Of a stretch of DNA of 64,000 nucleotides, positions 1,610-58,752 are shown piece by piece. The notes under the pieces are model-generated. The model made no database searches and was not told where the DNA came from. It worked only from the letters and a program-made list of their open reading frames with translations. This DNA is from Methylorubrum aminovorans (GTDB taxonomy: Bacteria; Pseudomonadota; Alphaproteobacteria; Rhizobiales; Beijerinckiaceae), in the NCBI RefSeq assembly GCF_022179725.1, contig NZ_BPRC01000006.1, forward strand, positions 1 to 64,000. The letters are read 5' to 3'. Both the position numbers and the translations under genes were made by a program. Every line of letters begins with the position of its first letter. Position 1 is the first letter of the stretch.

Positions 1610-2000
1610 TGCATGAGGCGGACGCCTCACGGTCGCGCTCGGGGAAGAGAGTTGCCGCCGTGCCCCCGCGCCTCGGATGAGCCTGATGTGGATGGGGGAA
1701 GCGACTACTCCGCCGAGCCGGCCCGCGACACCTTGAGCGCCCATCATCGGCTGAGTCTTGTGCCGACGATGCGAGGCCCGCCGTCTCGAACCCGCGGTCC
1801 CCGCCGGAGCGGGTATGCCGCTCCTCGACATCCCAAGGCGATTGAGTTCATGGCGGCGCGCAAGATCCCCAAGCCATTGCACAACCGTGTCGGCGCTGCC
1901 GAATTTCGGCCACTCTAAGTGGCCACGTGAGCTGGGTGATCCCCGTTTCCATGGCTTGATCCCGACTTCGCGATGGCTCCCCCGCTCAACCGACGAACCA
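1610..2000. other. Intergenic region upstream of the Ubl operon
   Basis: No convincing coding sequence. This region should hold the promoter of the operon that begins at 2018, but I could not pick out a clear -35/-10 pair by eye. Confidence 0.45.
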
Positions 2001-2017
2001 AGAAGGGAGAGTCGTAT

Positions 2018-2746
2018 GTGCGCCCCCCTTCGATAGAAGCCGCCCTCGACCGATTGGCCGCCCTCGACCTGGATGGGATCGTGCGTGAGGCACGGGCGGA
2101 GGACCCCAAGGCGCCCGGCTACGTCGAGAGCGAATGCTTGGTCCATCTGCTGCGTTCGACACGCCACGACAACACGGACACCCGTTTCCAGAGACTGTTC
2201 GAGGTGTTGATCGAGAGGGTCGAGCGCTCCCTGAAGGGCTCGATCCGGACCAGCCGCCGCTACGACGCGGAGGAGTTGCGGACCGAGGTCGTCAACCGCC
2301 TCGTCGATCTCCTCGTCGAGGACAGGCAGTCTCCGGGCATCAAGCTGGATTTCTTCGAGGTGCGGTTCGCCCGCGCCATGACCGCCTTGCGCATCGGCGT
2401 GCTGCGGCGTTCCGAAAGCCGGGCGGAGGGGACCGACCACATCGAAGACATGGGCGACGGTGAAGGTGATGCCGTCCCGGCCCTGACGAACCGTATCAGC
2501 CAAGCCTTCGCCGCCGACGGGTCCGAACAGGAAAAAGAACATTTCCGGAACGAGCTGCTTCGCGCGATCGACCGTCTGCCACCCCTTCAGCGGGAAGCCG
2601 TAGCCCTCTTCCTCGAAGGCCACCGCATCGAGGGAGGGGACACGGAGACCATAGCGAAGCTTTGCGGCGTCTCGGACCGGGCGGTACGTTATCGCCTCAG
2701 GAATGCGTACGAGACGCTGCGTCGGGAACTCGGAGAGAGACGATGA
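2018..2746 (+). CDS. Sigma-70-family-like factor, first gene of Ubl/helicase operon
   Basis: A 242-aa protein likely to bind RNA polymerase and/or DNA. The C-terminal third is typical of sigma region 4: it has LLRAIDRLPPLQREAVALF followed by the helix-turn-helix-like stretch TIAKLCGVSDRAVRYRLRNA near the end. The N-terminal two thirds are acidic/helical and I do not recognise a standard region-2 motif, so it may be a divergent sigma or a transcriptional regulator. The GTG start at 2018 is chosen because a strong Shine-Dalgarno (AGAAGGGAGA, 2001-2010) lies 7 bases upstream; an ATG at 1973 in the same frame has none. Its stop overlaps the next start (ATGA). It probably controls or is co-expressed with the downstream genes. 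Confidence 0.75.
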   Translation: MRPPSIEAALDRLAALDLDGIVREARAEDPKAPGYVESECLVHLLRSTRHDNTDTRFQRLFEVLIERVERSLKGSIRTSRRYDAEELRTEVVNRLVDLLVEDRQSPGIKLDFFEVRFARAMTALRIGVLRRSESRAEGTDHIEDMGDGEGDAVPALTNRISQAFAADGSEQEKEHFRNELLRAIDRLPPLQREAVALFLEGHRIEGGDTETIAKLCGVSDRAVRYRLRNAYETLRRELGERR

Positions 2747-3375
2747 CGACCAGCCCCTCGCACCGCGCGCAGGAAATCCTCCTGACCTTCGCGGCGGAAG
2801 GCGAACCCACCCCGAAGCGGTTGGAGGCCTTTACGAAGGAGTACCCGGACCTCCGCCGCGAGCTCACCGACCTTGCGGTCGAGTTGGTGCTGGAACCCTC
2901 GCGGCCGGTCCCCGCGGCTGACGCCGCGACGGCGCGCACCGTGTCGTCGGCATGGGCTCGCTTCCAGGCAGGCATCGCCAGCCCCCCGGCGAAGTCCCGG
3001 GCCGGCGCGGTGGTCGAGCCTTCGCCGGACGTCTTCGCGGGCTTCGCCGGCCCGTCATTCCCACGGCTCGCGGCCCGGCTCGGAGTGACACCCGCCTTCC
3101 TGATCAAGGTCCGGGATGGCCTTATCGAGGCCGCGTCCTTCCCCAAGGCGCTGGCCAGGGACATCGCGGACGAGGTCGGGCATGGCGTCGACACGGTCAT
3201 CGCCCTGTTGGAGCGCCCCGCATCCATGCCGGCCGGAACGATGGCCAAGGCCGACGGCAAGCCGGAGGTCGGCGTGAAGCAGACTTTCGAGGAGGCGGTG
3301 GCGAGCTCGGGCCTGACGGCGGATCAACGGCGGCGTCTGCTCGCGATGGCAGAGGCCGAACGTGGATCCGATTGA
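2743..3375 (+). CDS. Hypothetical regulator-like protein, partner of the peptidase-helicase
   Basis: A 210-aa protein starting MTTSPSHRAQEILL, translationally coupled to the sigma-like gene by a 4-base ATGA overlap. It overlaps the next gene by 14 bases. The centre (about residues 107-150) reads PRLAARLGVTPAFLIKVRDG and resembles the helix-turn-helix-containing partners often found beside IrrE/ImmA peptidases. The C-terminus carries KADGKPEVG and QTFEEAVASSGLTADQRRR, a pattern I recall from uncharacterised proteins coded beside sigma-like genes. Inference: it is an anti-sigma or repressor-like protein that the peptidase domain encoded next could cleave. No enzymatic motif is seen. Confidence 0.6.
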   Translation: MTTSPSHRAQEILLTFAAEGEPTPKRLEAFTKEYPDLRRELTDLAVELVLEPSRPVPAADAATARTVSSAWARFQAGIASPPAKSRAGAVVEPSPDVFAGFAGPSFPRLAARLGVTPAFLIKVRDGLIEAASFPKALARDIADEVGHGVDTVIALLERPASMPAGTMAKADGKPEVGVKQTFEEAVASSGLTADQRRRLLAMAEAERGSD

Positions 3376-6300
3376 GGCGGGGCGGAAGCAGGCCGCCCGC
3401 ATCCATGCCGAGATGGTCGCCGAGGGAGCCGATCCCTGGCAGCCGTTCGACCTTGCCGTGCGGGCCATTGAGGGCCACGGCCTCTGGCACCAGCCCGTCC
3501 ACGCGGGCGACGTCTCCCTGAACGGAGGCCGGGCACGGCTCGACCCGAAGTCGAAGGGCATCCTGTACGGCGAGACGGGCACCCCCGGAGGCGATGCGCT
3601 CCTGCTCGGACATGAGCTCGGGCACGTGGTGATGCACGGCGGGACCGCTCCCGTCGTCACTACGCATACCGACCCGAGCCGATCCTCCGAGAGCGGCATC
3701 GCCGTCGAGCGGCTGGCCGACTACGGGCGTGGGGAGCGCCGCGAGGTCCAGGCCGACCTGTTCGCGCGCGAACTGGTGCTGCCGCGAGCCGTCGCGCGTC
3801 GCCATCACCAAGACGGGATGAGCGTCGCCGACATCGCCGGGCGGCTCGGCATCTGCCCGGACGTGGTGACCCAGCAACTGCTGGACGCGCTACTGCTTCC
3901 CGTCGTGCCGGACGCCGCCCCCGCCCCCGCGGCCACGATGCGGCCGGACCCGAGCCAGGATGCGGCGGTCGCCCATCGTGGCGGCCCCTACCTGCTCCAG
4001 GCGGGGCCCGGGACGGGCAAGACCCGCACGTTGGTCAGAAGGATCGAGAGCCTCGTCGACGAGGGGATCGACCCGAACGGAATCCTCGTCCTGACCTTCT
4101 CGAACAAGGCGGCGGCCGAGCTGATGGATCGGCTCGCCCTGTCGCGGCCCGAGGCGGCCGCCTCGGTCTGGACGGGCACCTTCCACGCGTTCGGGCTGGA
4201 CGTGATCCGCCGCTTCCACGAACGCCTCGGACGAAGCGCGAGCCCGAAGCTCGTCGACAAGCCCACGGCCATCACGATGCTGGAGGGGGTTCTGGCGAGC
4301 CTGCCGCTGGCGCATTACCGGGACCTCTGGGACCCGGTGCAGGATCTCTCGAACATCCTCTCGGCCATTTCCCGCGCCAAGGACGAACTCGTCGACCACG
4401 TGCGCTACCGTGAATTGGCCGATGCGATGCAGCGTGCCGCCACGGACGACGCGACGCGCCTGAGGGCGGCGCGGGCGCATGAGGAAGCCATCGTCTACGA
4501 GGCTTACGAGAGGCTGCTCTCGGAGGCCGATGCCCTCGATTTCGGTGACCTCGTCATGAGGCCCGTGCGACTTGCGGCCGAGCATCCCGACGTGGCCAAG
4601 GCGCTGTCGCTCCGCCATCGCCACCTGCTCGTCGACGAGTACCAGGACGTCAACCTCGCCACCGTGCGCTTGATCCGGGCGCTGGCGGCCGACGAGGGCG
4701 AGCGGCTGTGGGTCGTCGGCGACGCCCGCCAATCGATCTACCGGTTCCGGGGCGCCACCTCGGCCAGCATGGCCGCGTTCCGGGCGCACTATCCCGGGGC
4801 GACCCTCGGGGCGCTCGACGTCAACTACCGGTCGCGCAAGGAGATCATCGACACCTTCACGAGCTTCGCCGCGAGCGTCGACGCCTTCCGCCCGCTCGGC
4901 GCGCTCGGCCTAGCCCCCGACAGGGGGGCGTCCGGCCTCAAACCGGTGCTGCACGACGCCGGCACCCCCGACGACGAGGTCGCGCTGGTGGCCGCCTCCG
5001 CGGCGCAGGCGAAGGCTGCGGGGGTGGACTACCGCGAACAGGCGGTCCTGTGCACGACCAACGACCGCCTCGCGGAGTTCGCCGCAGGCCTGATCGCCCG
5101 GGACGTACCGGTCCTCTACCTCGGGCCGCTGTTCGAACGGCCGGAGGTGAAGGAGCTGCTCTGCCTGCTCGCACTCTTCCACGATCCCCGCGCCGCAACG
5201 CTCGTCCGCGTCGCCACGATGCCGGGGTTCGAGATGGAGCTCGGCGACGTCGCCGCGGTCGCCGCCCATCTGAGGGACGCTTCAGGGCCGCCCCTCGACT
5301 GGCTGGCCGCCGCCGACGCCATCCCCGGCCTCGGCCCCTCGGCGACGGCGCCGCTGCGGCGCCTGCGAGAGGTCTGCGGGGGCTTCGCGGATCGGACGCC
5401 TCCGTGGCGCATCGCGAGCGCGCTGGTGCTGGACCGGCTCGGCATCGGCCGGAGGATCGCGGCCTCAGGTACCCTGCCCGAACGGATGGCGGGCATTGCG
5501 ATCTGGCAATTCCTGAACTTCCTGCGGTCATTGCCGGTCGAGGGTCAGTTCCCGACCTTCGAGGCGCTCCGCCGGATCAAGAGGCTGGTCGTCCTCGGCG
5601 AGGAGAAATCGCTCAGGCACGTCCCGGACGCCGCCCTCGAACTGGACGCGGTGCGCATCATGACGATCCACGCCTGCAAGGGCTTGGAGTTCCAGCTCGT
5701 CCATGCGCCCGGCATGATCAAGACGGGCCTGCCGCGAACGGCCAAGCCGCCGCCTTGCCCGCCGCCGGACGCGCTGATCGAGGGCAGCGACGGCCTCACC
5801 GGCCCGCAGGCCTGCCTGACGGGCCACGAAGAGCAGGAGGCCTGCCTCTTCTTCGTCCTGCTCTCCCGCGCGCGAGACGACCTGCGCCTCTACCGGTCCA
5901 CCATGATGGCCGGCGGGACCAAGAAGCGGAACCCGTCCGACTACAACGCCCGGATCGCCGCCACGCTGGGCCGGCCGCCCGCACTCGTCCGGCTCCCGTC
6001 GCCTCCGCCGCCATCCGGCCCGGCCGCCGTTCCCATCACATGGGAGACGCCGTTCGCGCTCGACCACCAGCACCTCGATTCCTACGGGAAATGCGGGCTG
6101 CGCTTCCTCTACACCTACCTGCTCGGCCTGGGCGGACGCCGCGACGAGACGCCGTACATGCGGATGCACAACGCCGTGGCGGAGACGGTCCGTTGGCTCG
6201 ACCGCAACTTCGACGCCGGGCGCGCTGAGCCGGAGGGCTTCGGCGAGGCCTTCGCCGCGGCCTGGACCGAGCACGGCCCGGTCGACCACGGGCACGCCGA

Positions 6301-6793
6301 GGCTTACAGGACCATCGCGGACGAGATGCTGCGGTTCCTCCTCGGCCTGCGTGACGAGGAAGGCAGGCTGCCTCCCGAGGCCTTGAGCCTGGCCGTTGCG
6401 GGAGGAAGCGTCCTTTCCAGGGCGCACGACGTGGTCCGCAACGCGGACGGACGCCTCGTCGTGCGCCGCGTCGCGACGAGGAAGGCACCGTCGGCGCTGC
6501 TGAAGGAGATCGAGTACATCGTCCTGGATGCCGCGGCGGAGGTGACGTTCGGCGAACCCGTTGTGGTCGAGGCGGTGCATCTCACCGGCGGCAGCCGGCA
6601 ACCGGTGGAGATCCCGCCGAAGAAGCGGGACGAGCTTCGTGCCGCCGTCGTCGCTCACATGTCCGGCATCGGGGCGGGACTGTTCGCCCCGAGCGTGGGA
6701 TCCCGCTGCCCGCGCTGCCCGCATCACTTCGCCTGCCCCGGCCTTCCCGGCGGCTCGGCGGTGGTGCGGCGACCCCTGGCGTGGGGCCGGTAG
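3362..6793 (+). CDS. IrrE/ImmA-type peptidase fused to UvrD/Rep-like helicase with AddB-like C-terminus
   Basis: A 1143-aa fusion. Residues about 1-145 form an IrrE/ImmA-like zinc peptidase, with HELGH at 84-88 and a downstream REVQAD (Glu128 the likely third ligand). Residues about 195-880 are a superfamily 1A (UvrD/Rep) ATPase: Walker A GPGTGKT at 215-221, DEYQD near 424-428, GDARQSIYRFRG near 452, and a late motif TIHACKGLEF near 764. The C-terminus (about 897-1140) resembles the PD-(D/E)XK_1 nuclease of AddB. It keeps a Cys near 911 and a terminal C-x2-C-x5-C (near 1116-1125), the pattern of the iron-sulphur nucleases, but I cannot find a clear D...ExK catalytic core, so it may be a dead nuclease. 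The start is GTG at 3362. The role is probably DNA unwinding or processing, coupled to proteolytic signalling. Confidence 0.85.
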   Translation: MDPIEAGRKQAARIHAEMVAEGADPWQPFDLAVRAIEGHGLWHQPVHAGDVSLNGGRARLDPKSKGILYGETGTPGGDALLLGHELGHVVMHGGTAPVVTTHTDPSRSSESGIAVERLADYGRGERREVQADLFARELVLPRAVARRHHQDGMSVADIAGRLGICPDVVTQQLLDALLLPVVPDAAPAPAATMRPDPSQDAAVAHRGGPYLLQAGPGTGKTRTLVRRIESLVDEGIDPNGILVLTFSNKAAAELMDRLALSRPEAAASVWTGTFHAFGLDVIRRFHERLGRSASPKLVDKPTAITMLEGVLASLPLAHYRDLWDPVQDLSNILSAISRAKDELVDHVRYRELADAMQRAATDDATRLRAARAHEEAIVYEAYERLLSEADALDFGDLVMRPVRLAAEHPDVAKALSLRHRHLLVDEYQDVNLATVRLIRALAADEGERLWVVGDARQSIYRFRGATSASMAAFRAHYPGATLGALDVNYRSRKEIIDTFTSFAASVDAFRPLGALGLAPDRGASGLKPVLHDAGTPDDEVALVAASAAQAKAAGVDYREQAVLCTTNDRLAEFAAGLIARDVPVLYLGPLFERPEVKELLCLLALFHDPRAATLVRVATMPGFEMELGDVAAVAAHLRDASGPPLDWLAAADAIPGLGPSATAPLRRLREVCGGFADRTPPWRIASALVLDRLGIGRRIAASGTLPERMAGIAIWQFLNFLRSLPVEGQFPTFEALRRIKRLVVLGEEKSLRHVPDAALELDAVRIMTIHACKGLEFQLVHAPGMIKTGLPRTAKPPPCPPPDALIEGSDGLTGPQACLTGHEEQEACLFFVLLSRARDDLRLYRSTMMAGGTKKRNPSDYNARIAATLGRPPALVRLPSPPPPSGPAAVPITWETPFALDHQHLDSYGKCGLRFLYTYLLGLGGRRDETPYMRMHNAVAETVRWLDRNFDAGRAEPEGFGEAFAAAWTEHGPVDHGHAEAYRTIADEMLRFLLGLRDEEGRLPPEALSLAVAGGSVLSRAHDVVRNADGRLVVRRVATRKAPSALLKEIEYIVLDAAAEVTFGEPVVVEAVHLTGGSRQPVEIPPKKRDELRAAVVAHMSGIGAGLFAPSVGSRCPRCPHHFACPGLPGGSAVVRRPLAWGR

Positions 6794-6937
6794 CGCGGCC
6801 CGGAGCCCCTAACAGACTGCTCGGCCCGCGGCCGAAAAAAACTTGGCCCGGCCGTTTCCGGCTTGGCCGGCCCCTTTCGATCAACCCCTCGACGGGCCGG
6901 GAAGGATGGCTTCCCGGGATGATCGAAAGGCAACGGG

Positions 6938-7651
6938 ATGAACACCAACGAGAACCACGGCCACCACGACGACGACGCCCCCCGCACGGACGAGGACGGC
7001 GTCCGCGCGGTCAAGGTCTACGGCTTCCGCATCGACAAGAAGAGCTACGAGAACCCGCTGCCGGACCTCACCGGCCGAGACCTGCTCGTTATCGCGGGCA
7101 AGGCGCACCCGGATCGCTGGAAGATTTTCCAGAAGGTCGGCGCCCAGTTGAAGCGCATCGGCCTCGACGAGGTCGTGCACGTGAGCGACAGCGGCGAGGA
7201 GCGCTTCGTCACCCTGCCGCTCGACCAGACGGAGGGGGAGCAGCCGCTCCCCCGCCGCCGGGATTTCGCGCTTCCCGAAGGCGACGAGGAGACGCTCGAC
7301 GCGGCCGGCCACCGCTGGGAGGCGATCCAGGAGGCGGGCGCCACCCGCGTCGTCGTCCGCGACTATCCCGTCCGCACCGGGTACGCCCCGGCCAAGGCGG
7401 ACCTGATGCTGCGCCTGCTGCCGGGGTATCCCTCGACTCAGATCGACATGTTCTACTTCCACCCCCCGCTCGCCCGGGCCGACGGGGTTCCGATCCGCGC
7501 CCTGGTCGGGGACACCTTCGAGGGCAAGCACTGGCAGGGTTGGTCGCGTCACCGCACCGGCGAGAACCCCTGGCGCCCGGACGTCGACGACATCGGCACG
7601 CACCTCGCGCTGGTCGAGCATTGCCTCGCCAAGGAAGTGGGGGCCGCCTGA
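6938..7651 (+). CDS. Multiubiquitin-domain / prokaryotic E2-like fusion
   Basis: A 237-aa protein. After a His/Asp-rich N-terminus, residues about 25-97 match the beta-grasp multiubiquitin domain (VKVYGFRIDKKSYENP, LTGRDLLVIAGK, GEERFVTLP). Residues about 108-233 match the prokaryotic E2 family E: RVVVRDYPVRTGYAPAKADL, LPGYPSTQIDMFYFHPP, a Trp-rich segment, and NPWRPDVDDIGTHL. The only cysteine is Cys229 near the C-terminus, not where a classical E2 active-site Cys would be, so this E2-like module may act without a thioester or use another residue. There is no terminal Gly-Gly; the protein ends EVGAA. The next gene starts 1 base after the stop. This is the likely modifier/conjugation component of the system. 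Confidence 0.85.
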   Translation: MNTNENHGHHDDDAPRTDEDGVRAVKVYGFRIDKKSYENPLPDLTGRDLLVIAGKAHPDRWKIFQKVGAQLKRIGLDEVVHVSDSGEERFVTLPLDQTEGEQPLPRRRDFALPEGDEETLDAAGHRWEAIQEAGATRVVVRDYPVRTGYAPAKADLMLRLLPGYPSTQIDMFYFHPPLARADGVPIRALVGDTFEGKHWQGWSRHRTGENPWRPDVDDIGTHLALVEHCLAKEVGAA

Positions 7652-7652
7652 C

Positions 7653-9047
7653 ATGCGCACCACCCTCGCCCTGACCGGCGCGCAACACGCCGCGCTTTGC
7701 GCCCACCTCTTCCCCGGCGACGGCCGCGAGGCGGTCGCCCTGATGCTCTGCGGGCGCGCCGCCTCGCCCGGACGGACGAAATTCGTCGTGAACCGGATCG
7801 TCCCGATCCCGCACCATGCCTGCGAGCGCACCGACAGGCGCGTGACTTGGCCGACCGCCTACCTGGAGCCCCTGCTCGCGGAGGCGGCGAAGCGCGGCAT
7901 GGCCGTGGCCAAGGTCCACAGCCATCCGGGCGGCGACCTGCGCTTCAGCGAGGTGGACGACGCCGCGGATGCCGACCTGTTCGGCGGGGTCCATGCCTGG
8001 GTCGACGACGGCCAGCCGCACCTCAGCGCGGTGATGGTCCCGGACGGGACGATGATCGCCCGGGCCCATGGCGAGGACGGCACGCACGCGCCGCTCGACC
8101 ACGTCGGCGTCGTCGGCGATGACCTCCGCTTCCACCGGCCCCCCGTTCACGCCGCCCAGGCCGTTCCCGAGTTCGCGCGGCGGCACGCCCAAGCCTTCGG
8201 ACGCGCGACGTTCGAGGCGATGCGGCACCTCCGCGTCGGGGTCGTGGGGTGCTCCGGGACCGGCGGTCCGGTCGTTGACCAGATCGCCCGCCTCGGCGTC
8301 GGCGAGATCGTGCTGGTCGACCCCGACCTGGTCGAGGACAAGAACCTCAACCGCATCGTCAACACGACGCTCGCCGACGTGGGTCGGCCGAAGGTGGAGG
8401 TTCTGGCGGCCTTCGTCGAACGCCTCGGGCTCGGTGCGAGGGTGGAGGCCTTTCCCTGCGACCTGTCCCGACCGGACGCGCTCAGGGCCGTTTCGACCTG
8501 CGACGTCGTGTTCGGGTGCATGGACGGGGTCGAGGGCCGCGACCTGCTGAATCGCCTCGCGACGTTCTACGTCCTGGCCTACCTGGACATCGGGGTGATG
8601 CTCGACGCCGATGGCGAGGGTGGCATCGACCAGATCTGCGGGTCGGTCCACTACCTGCAGCCGGGGCGCTCCAGCCTCCGGGGACGCGGTCTCTACACGG
8701 ACGGGATGCTTGAGGCCGAAAGCCTGAGGAGGCAGGACCCCGCGGCCTACGAGGACCGCCTCGCGCGCGGCTACATCCGCGGCGTGCCGCAGGAGCGGCC
8801 GGCCGTGGGTGCGGTGAACGGCCTGTTCTCCAGCCTCGCGGTGGTCGAGTTGCTGCTGAGGTTGCATCCGTCGCGGCTCGACCCGAACGGCGATTTCGCC
8901 GTCCAGACCCTAAGCCTGACGGCCGGGTTCTGGCAGTTCGCGCCGGAAGAGGGCACGGACGACGCGCTCGCGCGATACCTCGGTCGAGGCGACATGAGGC
9001 CGTTCCTGAACCGACCGCATCTCGACATGCTCATGAGGGCGGCGTGA
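7653..9047 (+). CDS. JAB (JAMM) peptidase fused to ThiF/E1-like adenylyltransferase
   Basis: A 464-aa protein with two modules. The N-terminal JAB/MPN domain has the complete JAMM set: Glu26, HSHP with His89 and His91, and SEVDD with Asp102, so it should be a zinc deubiquitinase-like isopeptidase. The C-terminal ThiF/MoeB/E1 domain starts near residue 193 with a nucleotide-binding VVGCSGTGGPV and DPDLVEDKNLNR. The E1 Cys is not certain; CGSVHY in the second half is a candidate. In bacterial Ubl systems such JAB-E1 fusions process and activate the modifier encoded next door. The ATG start lies 1 base beyond the preceding stop, and the stop overlaps the next start. Confidence 0.9.
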   Translation: MRTTLALTGAQHAALCAHLFPGDGREAVALMLCGRAASPGRTKFVVNRIVPIPHHACERTDRRVTWPTAYLEPLLAEAAKRGMAVAKVHSHPGGDLRFSEVDDAADADLFGGVHAWVDDGQPHLSAVMVPDGTMIARAHGEDGTHAPLDHVGVVGDDLRFHRPPVHAAQAVPEFARRHAQAFGRATFEAMRHLRVGVVGCSGTGGPVVDQIARLGVGEIVLVDPDLVEDKNLNRIVNTTLADVGRPKVEVLAAFVERLGLGARVEAFPCDLSRPDALRAVSTCDVVFGCMDGVEGRDLLNRLATFYVLAYLDIGVMLDADGEGGIDQICGSVHYLQPGRSSLRGRGLYTDGMLEAESLRRQDPAAYEDRLARGYIRGVPQERPAVGAVNGLFSSLAVVELLLRLHPSRLDPNGDFAVQTLSLTAGFWQFAPEEGTDDALARYLGRGDMRPFLNRPHLDMLMRAA

Positions 9048-9385
9048 TGGCGGGACTTCCCGTTACGCTGCTCCGGGCGTCCCTGTCCTGGGTCGCCCGC
9101 CGCCTCGGGCGTCACACCGTGGATTTCGTCGACGAGGAGCCCGATACGCCCGCGCCTCGCACGGTCTACGTCGTGGGTGAGGATGGCCATCAGTGGTTCG
9201 CGGCCTTCGGGTGCCCGTGCGGCTGCGGCGAGACGATCAAGCTCTCGCTCGTTCCCGGCGACCGGCCGGGCTGGCGCATCCGCCGACACTGGGACGGGAC
9301 CGCGTCGCTGACGCCGAGCGTCTGGCGTCAAGTGGGATGCCAGAGTCACTTCTGGCTGAGGAAGGGCCGGACCGACTGGTGCTGA
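9047..9385 (+). CDS. DUF6527-like zinc-binding protein
   Basis: A 112-aa protein overlapping the E1 stop (TGATG); a GTG three bases earlier is an alternative start. It has a Cys-rich core CPCGCGE near residues 63-69, followed by a W-rich stretch, LTPSVWRQVGCQSHFWL, and a terminal Trp-Cys. This matches the DUF6527 family as I recall it, which is repeatedly found beside bacterial ThiF/E2/JAB genes. The cysteines probably hold zinc. It could recognise substrate or act as a ligase-like adaptor, but no activity is established. Last gene of the operon. Confidence 0.75.
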   Translation: MAGLPVTLLRASLSWVARRLGRHTVDFVDEEPDTPAPRTVYVVGEDGHQWFAAFGCPCGCGETIKLSLVPGDRPGWRIRRHWDGTASLTPSVWRQVGCQSHFWLRKGRTDWC

Positions 9386-51968: not shown

Positions 51969-53603
51969 CTATACGACTTGATGTTCAAGGGGTATCAGGC
52001 CGGTGACATCGTCCTGGAGTTGGGCCGTCAAGTCGAGTTCCTGCCAGTAGGAGGCGGGGGCCGGGATGCCTCGCCGCCATACGATGTCCACGTTGACGTT
52101 CGGGTCGGTGAACCTCGCGTTCTTCTCGTCTTCCAGAAAAGCGTGTGTCGAGGCCCAAAGGCGCAACGTTTCGTCGAGGTCCGGCGAAGCGATGCGGGCC
52201 GTGACGGACTGGCACCGCAGCATCGCGCGCACGAGGGGCGCGGCTTGAGCGGCGCCGGGTGCGGTAAGCGCCCGCAACCCCCCGATGTAGTCCGACCGGT
52301 AGATGGTCGGCACCACGATTCGCGACTTCCCCCCGCCGACCAATTCCTTCGTCATCATGATGCGGGCGGTCCGACCGTTGCCGTCGTTGAAGGGATGGAC
52401 GAGGACGATGAGGGTGTGGGCGAACACGCCGCGGGCGAACGGGGCCTGCAGGTCGCGCAGCATGGCGAAACCCTCGCGCAGAGTCCCCTTGACGAGGTCA
52501 GGCAACACGAAGACGGTGTTGCCGGCGCTGTTGGCATCCTCCTTGAACTCGCCCGGCTTCTTGTCGGGGCGCGCGTCGAGCAACCGCGCGTTCCGCTCGC
52601 GGATCTCGGCCATGAACTCATCGACGGACGATGCGCGCGCCTCGCCCGGCACGATGCTCGCGACCTGGGCAAAGGTTTGCGTCACGTCGCGACCGTCCTG
52701 CGGCCGCCCATCGGCCGGTTCGTGCTCGAACACGATGCGCCGCGCCTTGTCGACGAGGAAGCGCGTGCCCTCGATGTAGTTGGTGAAGTACGCCTCGACG
52801 AATGACGTGCAGTCCCGCTCGCCGGGACCGACGTGCGGGTCGGCCAAGTCGGGCGCGACGCGCCCGAGGGTCATCGCCAAGACCTTGAGGCGCTCCATGC
52901 ACTCGGGGTCGTAGGGGTCGTCCGGCCGGCGCCGCGCGGCCACGTCCCTTGCGACCAAACCGGCTTTGCGCGTTCCGAGGATGGTCCCGATGATATCGAG
53001 GAGGACCTGCAGTTCCTGTTCCGCCCCAAGCGAGCCTGCGATGCACTCGGCCCGCTGCCGGATCTCCCGGAGACCGTCCTCATGGGCGGTCTTCAGCAAC
53101 CGCTCGACCTCTCGTTCGACGCCTTCCCTTCCGACGGTGCGGCTAGGCCCACTCCGTGCGCGTGATGCCTGCAGGTTCTCCAGCAGGGCGCGCGCGTCGC
53201 TCGGAAGGTAGACCCCGAGGAAGGACATGTCCCCCTCCAACGGCCCTGGACCGGGGAAGGTTCTGATTTCCAAGCCGGGCAGTGACAACCGCCTGCGGGC
53301 CTTCCCGTGCGGATCGGTCGCGAACACCCAGCCCGGGAAGACGACGCGCCCGTCCGGCCCGCGCTCACGCCAGGGATTCCTCTGCAGGGCAGTCCGGCCC
53401 CTGAGCACGGCACCAGGCGCGTATCGAGCGAGGATGGGAGCCCATCCGCCGCAGACAATCTCTTCGACGGGACGACCGTTGCACACCGCATAGATGCCGT
53501 CGCCGACCCGCCGGAGCTTGCCGGCGGCGGCCTGCCGCTGAAGGGACCGGTCGCGTTGCGGGTCGCCTCGCGTGAGGATCAGATCACCGTGCGTCGTAGC
53601 CAC
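51969..53603 (-). CDS. AbiEi-like/Fic-domain fusion (putative AMPylator, defence)
   Basis: A 544-aa protein. Residues about 1-150 resemble the AbiEi-type antitoxin N-terminus (a winged-helix start DLILTRGDPQRDRSLQRQAA, then AVLRGRTAL, EIRTFPGPGP). The Fic domain carries the complete catalytic loop HPFNDGNGR at 403-411. The segment TNYIEG at 274-279 matches the class II autoinhibitory motif [S/T]xxxE[G/N]. It is likely an autoregulated AMP/nucleotide-transferring enzyme that may act as a toxin or effector. A separate promoter at 53646-53674 serves it. The frame is intact, unlike the three upstream neighbours. Confidence 0.85.
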   Translation of the reverse strand: MATTHGDLILTRGDPQRDRSLQRQAAAGKLRRVGDGIYAVCNGRPVEEIVCGGWAPILARYAPGAVLRGRTALQRNPWRERGPDGRVVFPGWVFATDPHGKARRRLSLPGLEIRTFPGPGPLEGDMSFLGVYLPSDARALLENLQASRARSGPSRTVGREGVEREVERLLKTAHEDGLREIRQRAECIAGSLGAEQELQVLLDIIGTILGTRKAGLVARDVAARRRPDDPYDPECMERLKVLAMTLGRVAPDLADPHVGPGERDCTSFVEAYFTNYIEGTRFLVDKARRIVFEHEPADGRPQDGRDVTQTFAQVASIVPGEARASSVDEFMAEIRERNARLLDARPDKKPGEFKEDANSAGNTVFVLPDLVKGTLREGFAMLRDLQAPFARGVFAHTLIVLVHPFNDGNGRTARIMMTKELVGGGKSRIVVPTIYRSDYIGGLRALTAPGAAQAAPLVRAMLRCQSVTARIASPDLDETLRLWASTHAFLEDEKNARFTDPNVNVDIVWRRGIPAPASYWQELDLTAQLQDDVTGLIPLEHQVV

Positions 53604-53645
53604 TTAACGCCCCCGGGCGGCGGAAGCCCCGTCGCTTATATCGAC

Positions 53646-53674
53646 ATAATAACCTCTTGTGTCGTTTAAAACAA
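53646..53674 (-). promoter_or_regulatory. Sigma-70-like promoter of the Fic gene
   Basis: On the minus strand TTGTTT (53674-53669), 17 bases, TATTAT (53651-53646), about 43 bases before the ATG. The region is AT-rich in an otherwise GC-rich window. The -35 overlaps an imperfect 17-base dyad (TGTCGTTTAAAACAACA) that could bind a repressor, possibly the winged-helix N-terminus of the protein itself. Confidence 0.7.
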
Positions 53675-53777
53675 CATAAGCTCGCAATTGCCCTAAGGCA
53701 GGCTGATATACCCGTCTACTACTCGATTCCCGGACAAGGCAACCATGTCTCCGAGCGGTTGGAAGTCGAAGACCCCC

Positions 53778-54299
53778 TCAGACCGGCATGCCGGTCAAGG
53801 AGCGCGGGTTCACCTCGGCCCGATATCCCTTCGAATGCCTGAGCAGGCGCCGCATCTCATCGAGCCAGCCGAGGTCCTCGGCGGACTGGTCGTAGAGGCA
53901 GATGGCCAGCCCGTGTTCGAGGACCGGCTCGATCTTGGCGTATGCCTCGGAGGAATGCATCGCGGCAACGGCCTTGTCCCGGGATGGCCAGCGCGCCATC
54001 AGCGCGAACTCGACGTACCGGATGTCCCGGTCGTGCAGGTAGAAGACGACGTTCTTGTGCCGGAAGCGGGGACGCTGGAAGACGGGTCGCGGCCTCAGAT
54101 CGACGAGTGCCCGCGCGGCGTTGGTCGCAATCAGGCGCAGCAGAGGCTCCTCCGTCAGCCCCTCGATGTCGACGAAGGCGACGGCGCCCTCTCAGTCGTC
54201 CTGGCCGGGGAAGAGGGTGTATTGCAGGTCCGGCATGGACGGGACGGCATGCGGCGCCAGCGCCCGGGTCGGGAAGCTGAGGATCTTGCGTTCGGCCAT
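53778..54299 (-). pseudogene. Hypothetical gene with in-frame TGA (DUF488-like body?)
   Basis: A 173-codon frame starts at ATG 54299 (MAERKILSFPTRALAPHAVP) and reaches TGA at codon 36 (54194-54192). It then continues in the same frame with a coherent protein: EGAVAFVDIEGLTEEPLLRL, VDLRPRPVFQRPRFRH, RDIRYVEFALMARWP, to the stop at 53778. The run around VDLRPRPVF resembles DUF488-type proteins, but this is tentative. TGG to TGA (a lost Trp in GQDD-W-EGAV) is the simplest cause. It is likely non-functional unless read through. Confidence 0.75.
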
Positions 54300-54301
54300 C
54301 G

Positions 54302-54754
54302 TCAGGCTTCCGGGACCAAGGAGGCGGCACGCCTCTCGACGGAGGCCAAGTCACGCAGCCGGACGGCATGTTCGGGCAGGCCCCCGCCGGGAGGCACGAA
54401 CGTGCCGTGCTCGTCCTTCAGATCACCTTTCTTGATGAAGAAATCCTCATGCATTCGCTCGCCGACGCCGGTGAATGGAACGATGACCATCTGGGCCTGG
54501 GTCGGCGCCTTTCCGTCCTTGGGCCGTTGCGGAAGTTCCGTAACGATGGTGTCGGAGTGAAGCTCGACCGCGAGGCTCTTCACGTAAGGCTCGACGTAAT
54601 AGACCCGCTTCACCCCGGCGGTGACGAGGTGCCGGGCACAGTTATGGCAGGGATATACGGTGCAATAGAGCGTCCACTGACGACTGTTGCCGGCCCTTCG
54701 TGCGGGCGAGGCGCTCGGGTCGCCTGTCGCGGTGAAAAGCGTCGGGTTGACCGG
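54302..54754 (-). pseudogene. 5'-truncated deoxycytidylate-deaminase-like gene
   Basis: The frame beginning right after the stop of the OLD-like gene reads PVNPTLFTATGDP, then QWTLYCTVYPCHNCARHLVT with the deaminase zinc motif PCxxC, GVKRVYYVEPYVKSLAVELH, and a normal-looking end (LVPEA). The upstream HAE zinc/catalytic motif and the whole N-terminal domain are missing, and no good start codon exists before the motif (a GTG at 54613 lies after it). The end resembles the deaminase half of anti-phage dCTP/dCMP deaminases. It is a remnant. Confidence 0.8.
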
Positions 54755-56761
54755 TTACCGTGGCAAAGCAGCGTTGATGGCCTCGATGACCTTCTCACCG
54801 TTGTCGAGGGTCGTCACGACGCCAGGGCCGTTTCCGTCCAGGAAACTGGGATTGCGGATGAGCCAATCAGCCGGGCTGAAGTGGTCGAATTCCGGCGTGG
54901 ATGCCGGGAGGATCCTGAACACCGTCTCCATGCGCTTCACCAGCCGGCCGGGGCCCGGTGCATCCTTGTCAAGCTTGGCTAGGGTCAGTGCGGAACGCCC
55001 CTTGAGCTCGAAGGCGCCGTTGACAATGCCGACATAGGTCTCGGGCTCGAATATGTCCTCGACGTCGCCCTCGGCGATGCCGAGCACGTCGGGATAATTC
55101 ATGATGCGGCTCTCTGGTATGGCACCGGCGGCCTTGAGCTGCTCAAGCTTGCGCTTGTCGCCCTGGGCTCTGTCGGACATCACCGCCAGGTGTAGGTTCG
55201 CGCCCTTGAACAGGGAGACGAACGACTGGATCTTGTCGAGCCCACCGGCCGGACAGATCGTCCAGCGGGGGTCGAGCGCGGTCCGTCGCCGTCGCTTCAG
55301 CTGAGCCGACAGGGCCTTGAGGAACAGGATGTCGCCCGGTCCCTCGACCAGCAGGGTGTGCTTGCCGATGAACAGCGCCTGGGTGACGTCGTAGCCCAAG
55401 GCGGCCTGGAGGGGGAAGAGGGTGTCCGGGTCCGTGGCGAGCACGTCGCCCCTGACCTTGGTACCCTTCGTCGTCCAGAAGCCTGGACGCTTCTGCTCGA
55501 CCTGGTCCTCGATGATCCGGGAGAGCGTCAGGTCGTCGGGCGGCACCATGAAGGGCGAATGCGTGGAGAAGACCACTTGGTGCTTCGGCAGGAGTCGGTC
55601 GGCGAAGTACCGCAGCAGATCGGCCTGGGCCTTGCCGTGGAGGGTCAGCCCCGGCTCGTCCAGCAGGAGTATCTGGTTGCCCCCACGCTTGCTTACCTGC
55701 GCGAACTTCACCAGGAACGAGAAGAACCAGATGAACCCGGCGCTACGCTCCGAGAACGGCACCGTCACCCTGTGAAGGGTGTTCCTGACACGGGCGCGGG
55801 CGATCGCGCCGGCGTTGAACGGGGCGGGGTCGCCCGCTTCCGCCTTCGTGACCCTGACCTCAAGCTCCAGGAACGCGTTCTACGTCCAGTATTCCTGCAA
55901 TTGGTCGGTGATGGCGTTCGATGCGGATTCACACTTGGCGTTCAGCGACTCGTAGGTCGTCGACGCCTTGATCTCCTCCACCGAGGTCCCGGCGAATTCG
56001 AGGAAGTCGAGGAAAACCCTCTCGCCGACGTCCAAATGCGTGTTTCCATGCGGATGTCCGGGATGGTGGTACGGTGCGTCCCCGTTGCGTACGATGTCGT
56101 CGACCCGGATTTGCCCGGCCATGCGGTCGTAATACGAAAAGTACATGAACTGGGGCGTCACGGAGCGGATGTAGCTCCCAACGAAACCCACCGCGTTCTG
56201 GCCGGGGAACGACCTGATCGTTTCCAGGAGCGCGACTTGGTCCGGCGTCGGCTCCGCCAACGCCTCCAACGCCTTTCGGAGCATGTCCGTGGTTGTGGCT
56301 TCCGCAAGCGGTTCCCTGACGGTTTCGCCGAGGCCGTGGCTGGCCATCAGGTACTCGGCGATGGCCGGGTAGTTCAGCGGAACGTCGATGCGGAAGGTTT
56401 CGTCGTCGTAGCGGCGCGAGAGGGTGATCTGACGCGACCGGAGACAGTCGGGGCCCAACGCTTCGGCCAGCGTCGCCACATCCTCGGGCGATAGGGACCA
56501 TTTGGACGTGATGACGATTGCCTCGCCCTCCTCCTTCGGATGCCGTGCGTCGTACTCGTTCAGGTGCCGCCTGGGGTAGTCCCGTTCCCTATCGAATACC
56601 GTTGGTGTCGCCGGGTGGGGATTCAGGCCGGCCAAGGCTTGAAGGAGGGCGGTCTTGCCAGCCTCGTTCTTGCCGACAAGACAGACCATGTCGCCGAGCG
56701 TGACCTCTTCCGAATCCTCGACGCTGCGAAAATTGGTGACCCTGAAACTGTCGAGCCTCAT
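54755..56761 (-). pseudogene. OLD-like AAA ATPase/TOPRIM nuclease gene with in-frame TAG
   Basis: A single 669-codon frame from ATG 56761: Walker A GKNEAGKT (residues 30-37), then TAG at codon 294 (55882-55880). The same frame continues NAFLELEVRVTKAEAGDP, a coupling region, Walker B ILLLDEPGLTLHG, QVVFSTHSPFMV, and a TOPRIM-like part with TLLVEGPGDILFLKAL and SDRAQGDK. The TAG replaces what is usually a Gln (CAG) in related sequences (EYWT-Q-N), a single transition. Both halves are otherwise intact. It is an inactivated Gabija/OLD-type nuclease unless the stop is suppressed. Confidence 0.85.
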
Positions 56762-56827
56762 TCCATCCCTCGTAGTCGGTCCGCAGCTTCGCGGATGGCC
56801 AAGCAACTGCAATCGCAGATTGGTCTG

Positions 56828-58324
56828 CTAGACGATGCCGGATTTCGCTGCCCCTGGGTTTGGCGAGCCCGGCGCATAAGCGGTCCTGAAGTCCCGGTGG
56901 TTCGCCAACGCCAACGGCCTATAGGGACCTTTCCCATCACATTGGGTCACCTCGGCCAGATCGAATCTTTCCCTGACGCTCGGGTGGACCAGGGCATCCT
57001 CCGGGATCTCCCGGACCTTCACCGGCCATCCCAGCCATCCCATGCGACGGGACAGCCAGCGGGGAAGGATGCCGGCGATGGAGTCGTGCATGCCGGCGAC
57101 CTCGCAGTGCTGCATGCCATCGGACGCCGGATGCAGGTGCAGCCGGCCGGTACCGGGCTCTCCGGACACCATCCCGTCGACCCGAAGCGGATCCGGGATC
57201 TTGGTGGCCTGCTCCACCATCCACTGCAAGGCGACGTCGGACAGCCGGCTCTCGGCTTCGGGGTAGCTGCCGCCGATGTCGGAGTGGTTGCCGGCGAACC
57301 ACATCTGGATGAGCGGATCGGGCTCGCCCTGGACCTTTTTCCGCACCCCGTCCCGGCTGCCCCACCTGACCCGCGGGAAGTCGGCGCGGGTCTCGTCGAT
57401 GGAGAGGGCATGCCGGGCATAGCCGACATGGCCGCTCAGCAGTTGGTCGTAGTTCCCGGAGCGCCATTGCGCGATGTGCCAGCGCGCCTTCCCGTTCACC
57501 GGTGAGTCGGTGATGGTCTTGACCGCTGTCGGCAGCCAACGCCAGAGGACGAACGCCGCAGTGAGCGAGAGGGTGGCCAGGAACGGGCGCCAGTAGCCGG
57601 TGCCGAACGCTAGGTCGGACAGGACGGCGGGCACGGCTGCAACCAGCACGGCCAGGATCGTCAGGCCGGCCGCGATGCCCCACCACTTGGGTCCGGTCGC
57701 GCCGAGCGAGGCGACGGTGTCGAACACGCCGATGAAGTGCGGTGCCACGTTCGAGGAAAGGTCGTCACCCGACCTGTACTTGCGCCGGAATCGCCTCGCC
57801 AACTCGAACCGGTCCTTCTCGTAGTCGCCGCCCCGGGGTGAACCCGCGCCGTACTCATAGACCTTGATCACCGCCTCATCCGCGATGTCCCGCGTCGCCT
57901 TGCGGAAGCGTGGAAGGTCTCCGCCCGGCACTTTCGTCGGGACGCCGCACAGGAACAGAACGTTGGCCACGCAACGGGCCGTGTAGGCCCCTCGGCTGAA
58001 GCCGATCAGGTAGATGCGGTCGCCGGGCTCGTAGTGGTTGATGGCGAACTCGTAGCAGTCGGCGATGTTCTTCGTGATGCCCAGGCCGGTCACCGAGGAC
58101 AGCAGCTTCTGCAGTCGGCGGTAGGCACCGACGAAACCCGGGGCCGAGCCGTCCGTGCCGAGGCCGGCGTCGTAGAAGGCGACCTGCTCGCGCGGGTCGA
58201 TGCCGCTGTCCGGCCCGACCCGGCAGACGCGGTAGAGCTTGTAGACGTTGCTGAGGCGCTGTTCCTCGCGGAGGCCACCTTCCTGGCCGGTGCCATCCGA
58301 GAAGACCACGATGTTCTTAGCCAC
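56828..58324 (-). CDS. DUF2235 alpha/beta hydrolase (Tle1-like phospholipase fold)
   Basis: A 498-aa protein with GTG start at 58324 (AGGAGGGGGG upstream). KNIVVFSDGTGQEGG at the N-terminus and IGFSRGAYTARCVANV (nucleophile Ser in GFSRG) identify the DUF2235 family. Two hydrophobic segments (about 225-290) split the domain and suggest membrane association. Further conserved parts are FIGVFDTVASLG and HSDIGGSYPEAESRLSDV. Relatives act as phospholipase effectors (Tle1) or phage/defence-associated hydrolases. It lies 66 bases upstream of the broken OLD-like gene on the same strand. Confidence 0.88.
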   Translation of the reverse strand: MAKNIVVFSDGTGQEGGLREEQRLSNVYKLYRVCRVGPDSGIDPREQVAFYDAGLGTDGSAPGFVGAYRRLQKLLSSVTGLGITKNIADCYEFAINHYEPGDRIYLIGFSRGAYTARCVANVLFLCGVPTKVPGGDLPRFRKATRDIADEAVIKVYEYGAGSPRGGDYEKDRFELARRFRRKYRSGDDLSSNVAPHFIGVFDTVASLGATGPKWWGIAAGLTILAVLVAAVPAVLSDLAFGTGYWRPFLATLSLTAAFVLWRWLPTAVKTITDSPVNGKARWHIAQWRSGNYDQLLSGHVGYARHALSIDETRADFPRVRWGSRDGVRKKVQGEPDPLIQMWFAGNHSDIGGSYPEAESRLSDVALQWMVEQATKIPDPLRVDGMVSGEPGTGRLHLHPASDGMQHCEVAGMHDSIAGILPRWLSRRMGWLGWPVKVREIPEDALVHPSVRERFDLAEVTQCDGKGPYRPLALANHRDFRTAYAPGSPNPGAAKSGIV

Positions 58325-58752
58325 GCCCCCCTCCTGCAGCCGGGATGGTCCTGGAATGGAGCCCATCTTGCGAGGCTGGATCGCGTCCGACGCCCAGTCA
58401 GACCGGTTAAGCCCAGCTTCGGGAGTCGCAACCGCCAGGTTCCTTGTTTGTTCCCAATCTGCGACCAGAGTGTACGCGCTGACGGAGGCCATGGCCTCCG
58501 AGCACGAAGCCCGGCGGGCGAAGTCGCGCCCTGCACGCGAACAACCTCACCCCTGACACCAAGGCGGCCGGAATGGCGGCCGGGACCTAACCCCCTACCG
58601 GCGGCCGGCCCCGCCGGTGCCCGGATTTGAACCTCGCTCACCGGACCGAACGGTTGGGGCGGATACATCCAAGGACTTTCGTCGGGGCGCCACTCGTTGA
58701 GCGCCAAATAGCTCATGGTCTGCCCGCGTGGATGTGCTATGCACCCCGCATC
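58325..58752. other. No gene seen
   Basis: Divergent intergenic region between the DUF2235 gene and the second metal operon. Only short shadow frames. One stretch looks like a tRNA T-loop, but it does not fold (see rejected items). Confidence 0.5.

Follow-up and report, generated by a model that had tools for sequence, protein, structure and literature searches.

In Deinococcus, the M78 peptidase IrrE cuts the helix-turn-helix (HTH) repressor DdrO after DNA damage. An HTH protein and an M78 peptidase, with DNA damage as the proposed trigger, are likewise found beside bacterial operons for the conjugation of ubiquitin-like (Ubl) proteins, and are denominated CapH+CapP. According to PMC13373217, CapP is a protease activated by single-stranded DNA that cuts CapH, and of 544 Bub operons 219 are associated with CapW or CapH+CapP and 59 with CapK+CapS; CapW (a WYL regulator) and CapK+CapS (a kinase and a STAS repressor) are also DNA-damage-responsive controllers fronting the same operon classes. 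Bil (BilABCD) is described in the same source as an anti-phage, ISG15-like conjugation system. In 2016, COG2856 genes had been reported beside 70% of PF14452 proteins and read as toxin-antitoxin loci (PMC4963859). Bub operons are probably the type 6e multi-ubiquitin (multi-Ub) operons defined in section 14 of PMC1779556 (Iyer et al. 2006), as inferred from an Enterobacter roggenkampii plasmid (L031; L numbers denote loci throughout). A type 6e operon is found in the window, a stretch of 64,000 nucleotides from Methylorubrum aminovorans (contig NZ_BPRC01000006.1, positions 1 to 64,000), preceded by genes for a sigma-like factor (SIG), a regulator (REG) and a peptidase-helicase (HEL), collectively called the triad. 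The triad is read here, with a probability of about 0.6, as a dedicated, mobile on-switch for the Ubl conjugation operon.

The genetic elements are organized as follows.

1973–2746, + strand: SIG, sigma-70/ECF (extracytoplasmic function)-like factor of 257 amino acids (aa); Pfam Sigma70_r4_2, 2.2e-10
2541–2571, + strand: P_int, copy of a promoter-like element within the SIG gene, about 170 bp 5' of REG
2743–3375, + strand: REG, regulator of 210 aa, probable XRE-type HTH at aa 93-157
3362–6793, + strand: HEL, 1143 aa, combining by Pfam an M78 metallopeptidase, a UvrD helicase and a four-Cys PD-(D/E)XK-like domain
3533–3877, + strand: M78 (ImmA/IrrE/CapP-type) peptidase domain of HEL, HELGH motif; PF06114, 4.8e-8
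6068–6739, + strand: PD-(D/E)XK-like domain of HEL, probably inactive, four conserved Cys; PF12705 (PDDEXK_1), 4.7e-8
6854–6884, + strand: P_ubl, promoter-like element GTTTCCGG-N15-TCGATCAA, 53 bp 5' of the Ubl gene
6938–7651, + strand: Ubl-E2, ubiquitin-like domain (aa 28-93) and E2-like domain (aa 112-233), 'TEG' near the junction
7653–9047, + strand: JAB-E1, fusion of a JAB/JAMM peptidase (HSHPGGDLRFSEVD) with an E1/ThiF adenylation domain
9044–9385, + strand: DUF6527 protein; PF20137, 3e-23

The last three genes are those of type 6e operons. The triad is not mentioned in section 14 of PMC1779556, and the words 'helicase' and 'sigma factor' are absent from the part of that text available. 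CapH and CapP are encoded by two short stand-alone genes and lack a sigma factor, whereas the window peptidase is fused to UvrD and to a degenerate PD-(D/E)XK-like domain, and the triad adds a sigma factor with private promoter-like elements. CapK+CapS and CapW are different proteins altogether, with neither sigma factor nor helicase. The proposed cutting of an HTH protein by an M78 peptidase has its counterpart in IrrE/DdrO, a pair that comes without fused helicase, sigma factor and Ubl operon. By analogy, the triad looks like a CapHP-type switch whose peptidase is part of a helicase fusion and whose output is a dedicated sigma factor. Literature searches of partial coverage, which leave an earlier mention possible, retrieved no description of this gene set, nor was the peptidase-helicase-sigma wiring found described in the literature examined.

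Relatives of HEL were searched for at E <= 1e-60 in samples of the order (297 genomes), the class (385) and the phylum (329), with 9 (window's genome included), 5 and 5 matches, respectively. Leaving out the window's genome, 8 + 4 + 4 = 16 relatives remain, each with a ubiquitin-like module downstream in the short stretch covered; linkage by chance has been set aside on this count. The tie of the sigma-like, regulator and peptidase-helicase genes to the Ubl genes, advanced in an earlier note made from the window sequence alone, is thereby borne out. The note had added that wide occurrence of each part without the other would make the linkage coincidental; triads without Ubl genes proved to be seldom, Ubl genes without the triad frequent.

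A first set of 50 loci includes the relatives from the order and class samples, 29 named loci (L032-L060), 8 hand-picked plasmid loci and the window. Thirty are followed by multi-Ub and 13 by Bil modules, three contigs end inside HEL (L046, L050, L055), and four loci lack a module (L023, L036, L047, L059); a module is hence present in 43 of the 47 assessable loci. The named loci derive from 80, of which 51 (L061-L111) were left out, their match starting at residue 177 or later, without M78. Near relatives were counted separately (HEL pairs are up to 97% identical among the 50 loci), and 12 of the 50 stretches have flanks of only 1.5 kb. All 14 loci of a later set (4 from the phylum sample, 10 hand-picked plasmids) have a module, multi-Ub in 10 and Bil in 4. 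Modules thus accompany 57 of the 64 loci found by means of HEL, three of the others being contigs that end early and four lacking a module. The 18 plasmids (8 + 10) were hand-chosen via HEL matches among 91 plasmid records with HEL; L161 and L165, HEL loci reached by the Bil search, enter the promoter count and stand outside the 64. SIG is present in 45/50 loci of the first set. The stretch is cut before SIG in L020, L021 and L041, SIG is missing in L036, and in L025 its place is taken by another protein, sigma-like by eye.

The gaps between HEL and the Ubl genes share a promoter-like element fitting the consensus TTWCCGG - 14 to 16 bp - CGATT. A variant, CTTCCGG - 16 - TCGCT, is found in a divergent HEL clade. 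Leave-one-out tests were run with matrices trained on the other loci, rows at least 70% alike to the test stretch being removed, against 500 first-order Markov resamplings. In the main clade 34/37 loci reach p<=0.01 (the misses are L049, 0.036; L161, 0.134; L018, 0.172), and 30 of the 34 positive loci have the element 40-62 bp 5' of the start codon. In the divergent clade 6/7 loci reach p<=0.01 with their own variant (L051 is the miss), which makes 40/44 for both clades. L025 was left out of this count because its Ubl genes are divergent. Among 23 controls lacking the triad, from which L147 and the Bil loci L158, L160 and L166 are excluded, one reaches p<=0.01 (L143, 0.010) and none scores above 8.8. 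Because the seed words had come from the same gaps, the matrix was frozen and 14 further loci were tested; 12 of these are positive at p<=0.01, L211 (0.032) and L219 (0.082) being missed. This test, like that on codons described below, is not post hoc.

In the window, P_ubl has a leave-one-out p of 0.002, the floor of the test. P_int, the best site (position weight matrix score 21.1), and P_ubl are the two best of the 64 kb, where the exact core pattern occurs twice, 0.10 matches being expected. Judging from a few loci, each case being a single one, the element appears to follow the SIG gene and not HEL. It is found (score 16.1) about 55 bp 5' of BilA in Cupriavidus EM10, which has SIG-REG-Bil and no HEL match; none is seen in Methylobacterium brachiatum, which has REG-HEL without SIG, nor in Robbsia, where the first gene encodes the other, by-eye sigma-like protein. 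In L023 an element scoring 25.3 is followed by an IS66-type gene.

A second copy of the element is often found in or before SIG. Whole loci were scanned in 23 of 28 cases (L048, L049, L051, L058 and L161 were left out), and the gap site comes out on top in 7 and second in the other 16. Among the latter the better site is inside SIG in 14, before SIG in L165, and elsewhere in L043. The inner site typically lies 218 bases before the SIG end, and scores at least 14.7 in 27 of 41 SIG genes. It falls on the residues [FY]R.....AI, missing in 13/41 SIG, and conservation of the protein could therefore mimic it. The choice of codons suggests otherwise. In 28 loci the preceding codon ends in T in 25 (5.7 expected), Arg is encoded by CGG or CGA in all 28 (10.6), Ala by GCG in 26/27 (9.5), and Ile by ATT in 23/28 (8.1). 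Expectations were derived from the codon use of each locus, and in 20,000 simulations none reached any of these counts. Among loci without the inner copy, L024, L035, L053 and L056 have one upstream, as do L051 and L058 in the form of the variant. Of the held-out loci (14), 9 carry the inner copy and 3 others an upstream copy. In the window, no element is found within 250 bp 5' of SIG (8.5, p=0.08).

HEL joins features of a peptidase, a helicase and a nuclease, Pfam adding UvrD (8e-58) to the Peptidase_M78 and PDDEXK_1 matches given above. As expected of a CapP-like protein, the HE[LI]GH motif is invariant in 15/15 aligned members, as are residue E128, which we take to be the third metal ligand of the M78 peptidase, and the helicase motifs. 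The PD-(D/E)XK-like domain is degenerate. At the place of D-x-K-T-G, presumably the nuclease motif, D is replaced in 15/15 and K in 13/15 members in an alignment read by eye; K is kept in L018 and L023 only, and the window protein lacks both. The domain is hence probably inactive and HEL likely a sensor, and the candidate role of an active nuclease has been set aside on these grounds. Residues C911, C1116, C1119 and C1125, invariant in the 15 members, are reminiscent of Fe-S nucleases of the AddB/Cas4 kind. In the Bil locus L021 (1498-4853) HEL is broken into two ORFs that overlap in different frames, through a frameshift or a sequencing error. A scan of viral contigs yielded 26 HEL relatives, nearly all matching the helicase core alone. 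REG is found beside HEL in two IMG/VR contigs (L182:266-4316 and L186:3660-5143), where the stretch ends or close to that point; a profile search of these short stretches detected no Ubl module. The L186 HEL is 63% identical to that of L019 across the first 282 residues.

Sigma-70 region 4 is clear in SIG. The near full-length match to TIGR02937 (39.9 bits) stays below the cut-off of 42.9, and profile matches in PDB include sigma-H (3e-6) and sigma-E (4e-4). Foldseek with the AlphaFold2 (AF2) model (pLDDT 86) has sigma-E and sigma-32 as top rows, all weak (best E 0.017). REG matches no Pfam family above cut-off. Its PDB profile matches are XRE HTH proteins, with weak E values (0.003-0.1). The AF2 model (pLDDT 84) shows N-terminal helices, the HTH, a conserved KP segment (encoded at about 3235-3282) and C-terminal helices. 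In VIA-align the top row is the HTH domain of cyanase (Z 5.0), followed at about 4 by many tied HTH proteins, among which the CapH N-terminal domain (7t5u, Z 4.2), DdrO (6jq1, 4.1), SinR and the 434 repressor; no useful structural match was obtained for the N-terminal helices. The CapH-like character of REG consists in this weak profile and these tied rows. The near-invariant P174 sits, in the model, in a coil behind the HTH, a candidate region for the cut.

The on-switch may be imagined to work as follows. In the resting state REG would keep SIG inactive. Through the UvrD helicase and the inactive nuclease-like domain HEL would sense abnormal DNA, such as single strands or ends arising from damage or phage replication, and sensing would turn on its N-terminal peptidase, which would cut REG. 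Freed SIG would then promote transcription from its own two promoter copies, one inside or before the SIG gene, feeding back on REG-HEL, the other serving the Ubl genes. JAB-E1 and the Ubl-E2 protein would in turn tag target proteins, plausibly with an anti-phage outcome; in other genomes the same switch would drive BilABCD. We consider the odds slightly better than even that the triad represents a new class of controllers, in which a DNA-sensing protease-helicase frees a private sigma factor and promoter copies fire whichever module, multi-Ub or Bil, is plugged in. If true, this would explain the silencing and firing of part of the bacterial ubiquitin-like operons, many Bil operons included, and one mobile cassette would bring together a peptidase of ImmA type, a helicase acting as sensor and a dedicated sigma factor. 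P_ubl would be a ready-made reporter for finding the trigger of ubiquitin-like operons. Since the same switch fronts the anti-phage Bil, the unproven multi-Ub operons become better defence candidates.

Many Ubl operons lack the triad. In the order sample, HEL is found in 4/12 genomes with Prok-E2_E and in none of the other 8; in the class sample it is found in 3/12 genomes with Multi_ubiq (one below cut-off), and missing in 9. The window's genome is counted in both. Nineteen triad-less multi-Ub operons were read, 17 from genomes and two from plasmids (L030, L031). In 15 of the 19 a short gene of M78 type lies in the vicinity (11 identified by sequence pattern, 4 by HExxH in the gene list), and on this account the existence of triad-less operons does not make the linkage coincidental. 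Pfam is positive on the three tested (L143, L154, L155). Most of these genes are beside an HTH gene by eye, and in L154 HTH and M78 are fused, by Pfam. Of the remaining operons, L149 has a WYL regulator, L031 has a CapK/CapS-like pair, with a winged helix and a weak HATPase match (0.04), and no nameable controller was seen among the genes near L030 and L144. In the 50 triad loci, no short M78 gene was found beside the Ubl genes by the pattern, which misses 4 of the 15 above, 12 of the 50 flanks being short. The three pattern matches in triad loci correspond to a HEL piece (L021), an upstream M48-like gene (L022) and a gene roughly 5 kb distant (L039). In L147, L162 and L163 the short M78 gene is directly followed on its own strand by an exonuclease gene (annotated in the latter two, by eye in L147), which is possibly part of the same DNA-damage controller.

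The triad is also found in front of Bil operons, which the earlier note could not have seen from the sequence alone. In L058 the four genes 3' of HEL match the PADLOC models of BilA (1.6e-52), BilB (4.5e-64), BilC (1.5e-67) and BilD (1.6e-170). The window carries multi-Ub instead; its single, weak BilD match (0.008, gene 5) does not qualify it as BilABCD. The element or its variant accompanies most of the triads fronting Bil. In the order sample, all three genomes with a BilB match above cut-off have HEL adjoining, and a fourth match, below cut-off (G060), does not. HEL is near BilD in at least 15 of 35 plasmid records with BilD, at least 13 by coordinates and two by reading. Other Bil plasmid loci feature HTH and ImmA/IrrE genes by annotation (L157, L162, L163), an HTH-M78 fusion (L159), an M78 motif (L164) or SIG-REG without HEL (L160); no controller was found in L158 and L166. 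HTH and ImmA/IrrE genes are directly upstream of BilABCD in Paraburkholderia caffeinilytica. In a tree of 49 HEL proteins, built quickly, the module type switches between multi-Ub and Bil four times (the branches of L165, L059, L049 and L161 are long and unsure), and modules therefore seem to have been exchanged behind one switch. In Cupriavidus EM10 (L160:6212-7099) an inverted gene matching no Pfam family occupies the place of HEL between SIG-REG and Bil.

REG could alternatively be a DNA-binding repressor, of the CapH/DdrO sort, acting at the SIG promoters and still cut by HEL, with SIG constitutively competent. The XRE-type HTH of REG, the presence of CapH and DdrO among the tied structural rows, and the filling of the same slot in triad-less operons by short M78 genes, as a rule with an HTH gene next to them as judged by eye, are all in keeping with this arrangement. 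A plain repressor, however, needs neither a private sigma factor nor a bipartite, non-palindromic element at a fixed distance from the start codon, as found in most loci, and the REG-HEL pair of M. brachiatum, lacking SIG, lacks the element too. We regard this explanation as unlikely.

The conserved element might also, instead of being a SIG promoter, be an operator to which REG binds. The genes of the two proteins occur together, as they do in Cupriavidus EM10, which keeps both, and conservation alone consequently cannot tell the two possibilities apart. Yet two non-palindromic blocks, spaced by 14-16 bp and placed 40-62 bp 5' of the start codon in most main-clade matches, speak against an operator, the second block differs in the divergent clade, and the element is absent from the one locus in which REG occurs without SIG. 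An operator is accordingly held to be improbable.

The earlier note had suggested a two-layer stress or phage-sensing defence. On such a reading HEL would be a second effector, a peptidase-armed helicase-nuclease attacking phage DNA beside the ubiquitin-like layer. The UvrD part is similar to GajB and AddA by sequence, and two of the 15 members keep the K of the nuclease motif. The loss of D in all members and of K in the other 13, by eye, tells against a nuclease, the promoter system of the triad aims at the Ubl genes, and short M78 genes replace HEL elsewhere. A second effector thus has a low probability, and because of the promoter evidence the triad is viewed as a controller. That the triad is an addiction, or toxin-antitoxin-like, element keeping a mobile cassette, as the 2016 reading of the COG2856 neighbours would have it, is very improbable and has been set aside, since CapH+CapP is now presented as a regulatory pair (PMC13373217) and the conserved element suggests transcriptional control.

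Several observations weigh against the triad being an on-switch of this kind. That REG holds SIG is a proposal, and the HTH of REG could bind DNA instead. Where a copy of the element is inside SIG, the proposal offers no source for the first SIG molecules. In 8 of 41 SIG loci (three unscanned upstream) the inner copy is missing and no upstream copy was seen, and the same holds for L211 and L219 in the held-out set. L047 and L059, in which the triad is complete, lack a Ubl module as well as the element, the best score being 11.1. The first version of the promoter test, on the gap alone and without clade split, gave 29/42 loci at p<=0.01. The p-values of leave-one-out tests and controls are post hoc, as seeds were picked from the gaps and the clade split from the tree, and the held-out HEL proteins are 44-95% identical to the closest training HEL. 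The loci of the codon test, being related, are not independent. Finally, the exact core patterns are too common in the 6.1-Mb genome for a regulon to be delimited, with 27 and 7 matches versus 2 and 1 for the backwards controls.

The six genes of the window, reported in the earlier note, are all present, on the + strand, and nearly touch each other over 1973-9385, the widest gap (144 bp) being located 5' of gene 4. The domains assigned to them are upheld by Pfam, apart from three points. SIG, correctly taken for a sigma-like factor, most likely starts at the ATG at 1973, since the extra N-terminus is common to its relatives; the start proposed at 2018 is an internal GTG. In HEL, described as an IrrE-UvrD fusion, both parts are there, and the C-terminal nuclease-like domain had been overlooked. 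The supposed multiubiquitin-E2 fusion matches both Multi_ubiq (1.4e-9) and Prok-E2_E (1.4e-33), but contains a single ubiquitin-like domain, and the portion of the E2-like domain that would hold the active site shows no cysteine conserved across the family. JAB-E1 matches Prok-JAB (2.7e-8) and ThiF (8e-30), and has the JAMM motif. The module fits type 6e, which combines a Ubl protein, a Cys-less E2-like domain, an E1 bearing JAB at its N-terminus and a metal-binding protein; the DUF6527 protein is metal-binding by the description in PMC1779556.

Other genes are found around some triads and modules. A WYL-domain gene (L213:2299-3466) and a WGR-domain gene (L221:2298-3351) are directly 5' of SIG-REG-HEL, beside SbcCD-like genes by annotation, and two controllers are possibly stacked there. 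In rhizobial plasmids (L163:10496-16443, L214-L216) genes annotated as PD-(D/E)XK nuclease family members follow Ubl or Bil modules, once together with a UvrD helicase gene; in L214, L215 and L216 they come after the ThiF/DUF6527 genes. In the window, a further defence- or toxin-like cluster at 51969-58492, on the - strand, encodes a Fic/DOC protein, two ORFs matching AAA ATPases, one with an OLD-like TOPRIM, and a Tle1-like phospholipase. A heavy-metal island (10468-34941) adjoins the Ubl operon, with a P-type ATPase and an RND-efflux (resistance-nodulation-division) match by Pfam and other genes by eye. The Robbsia (L025) and Acinetobacter (L028) copies are similarly located near copper or mercury genes.

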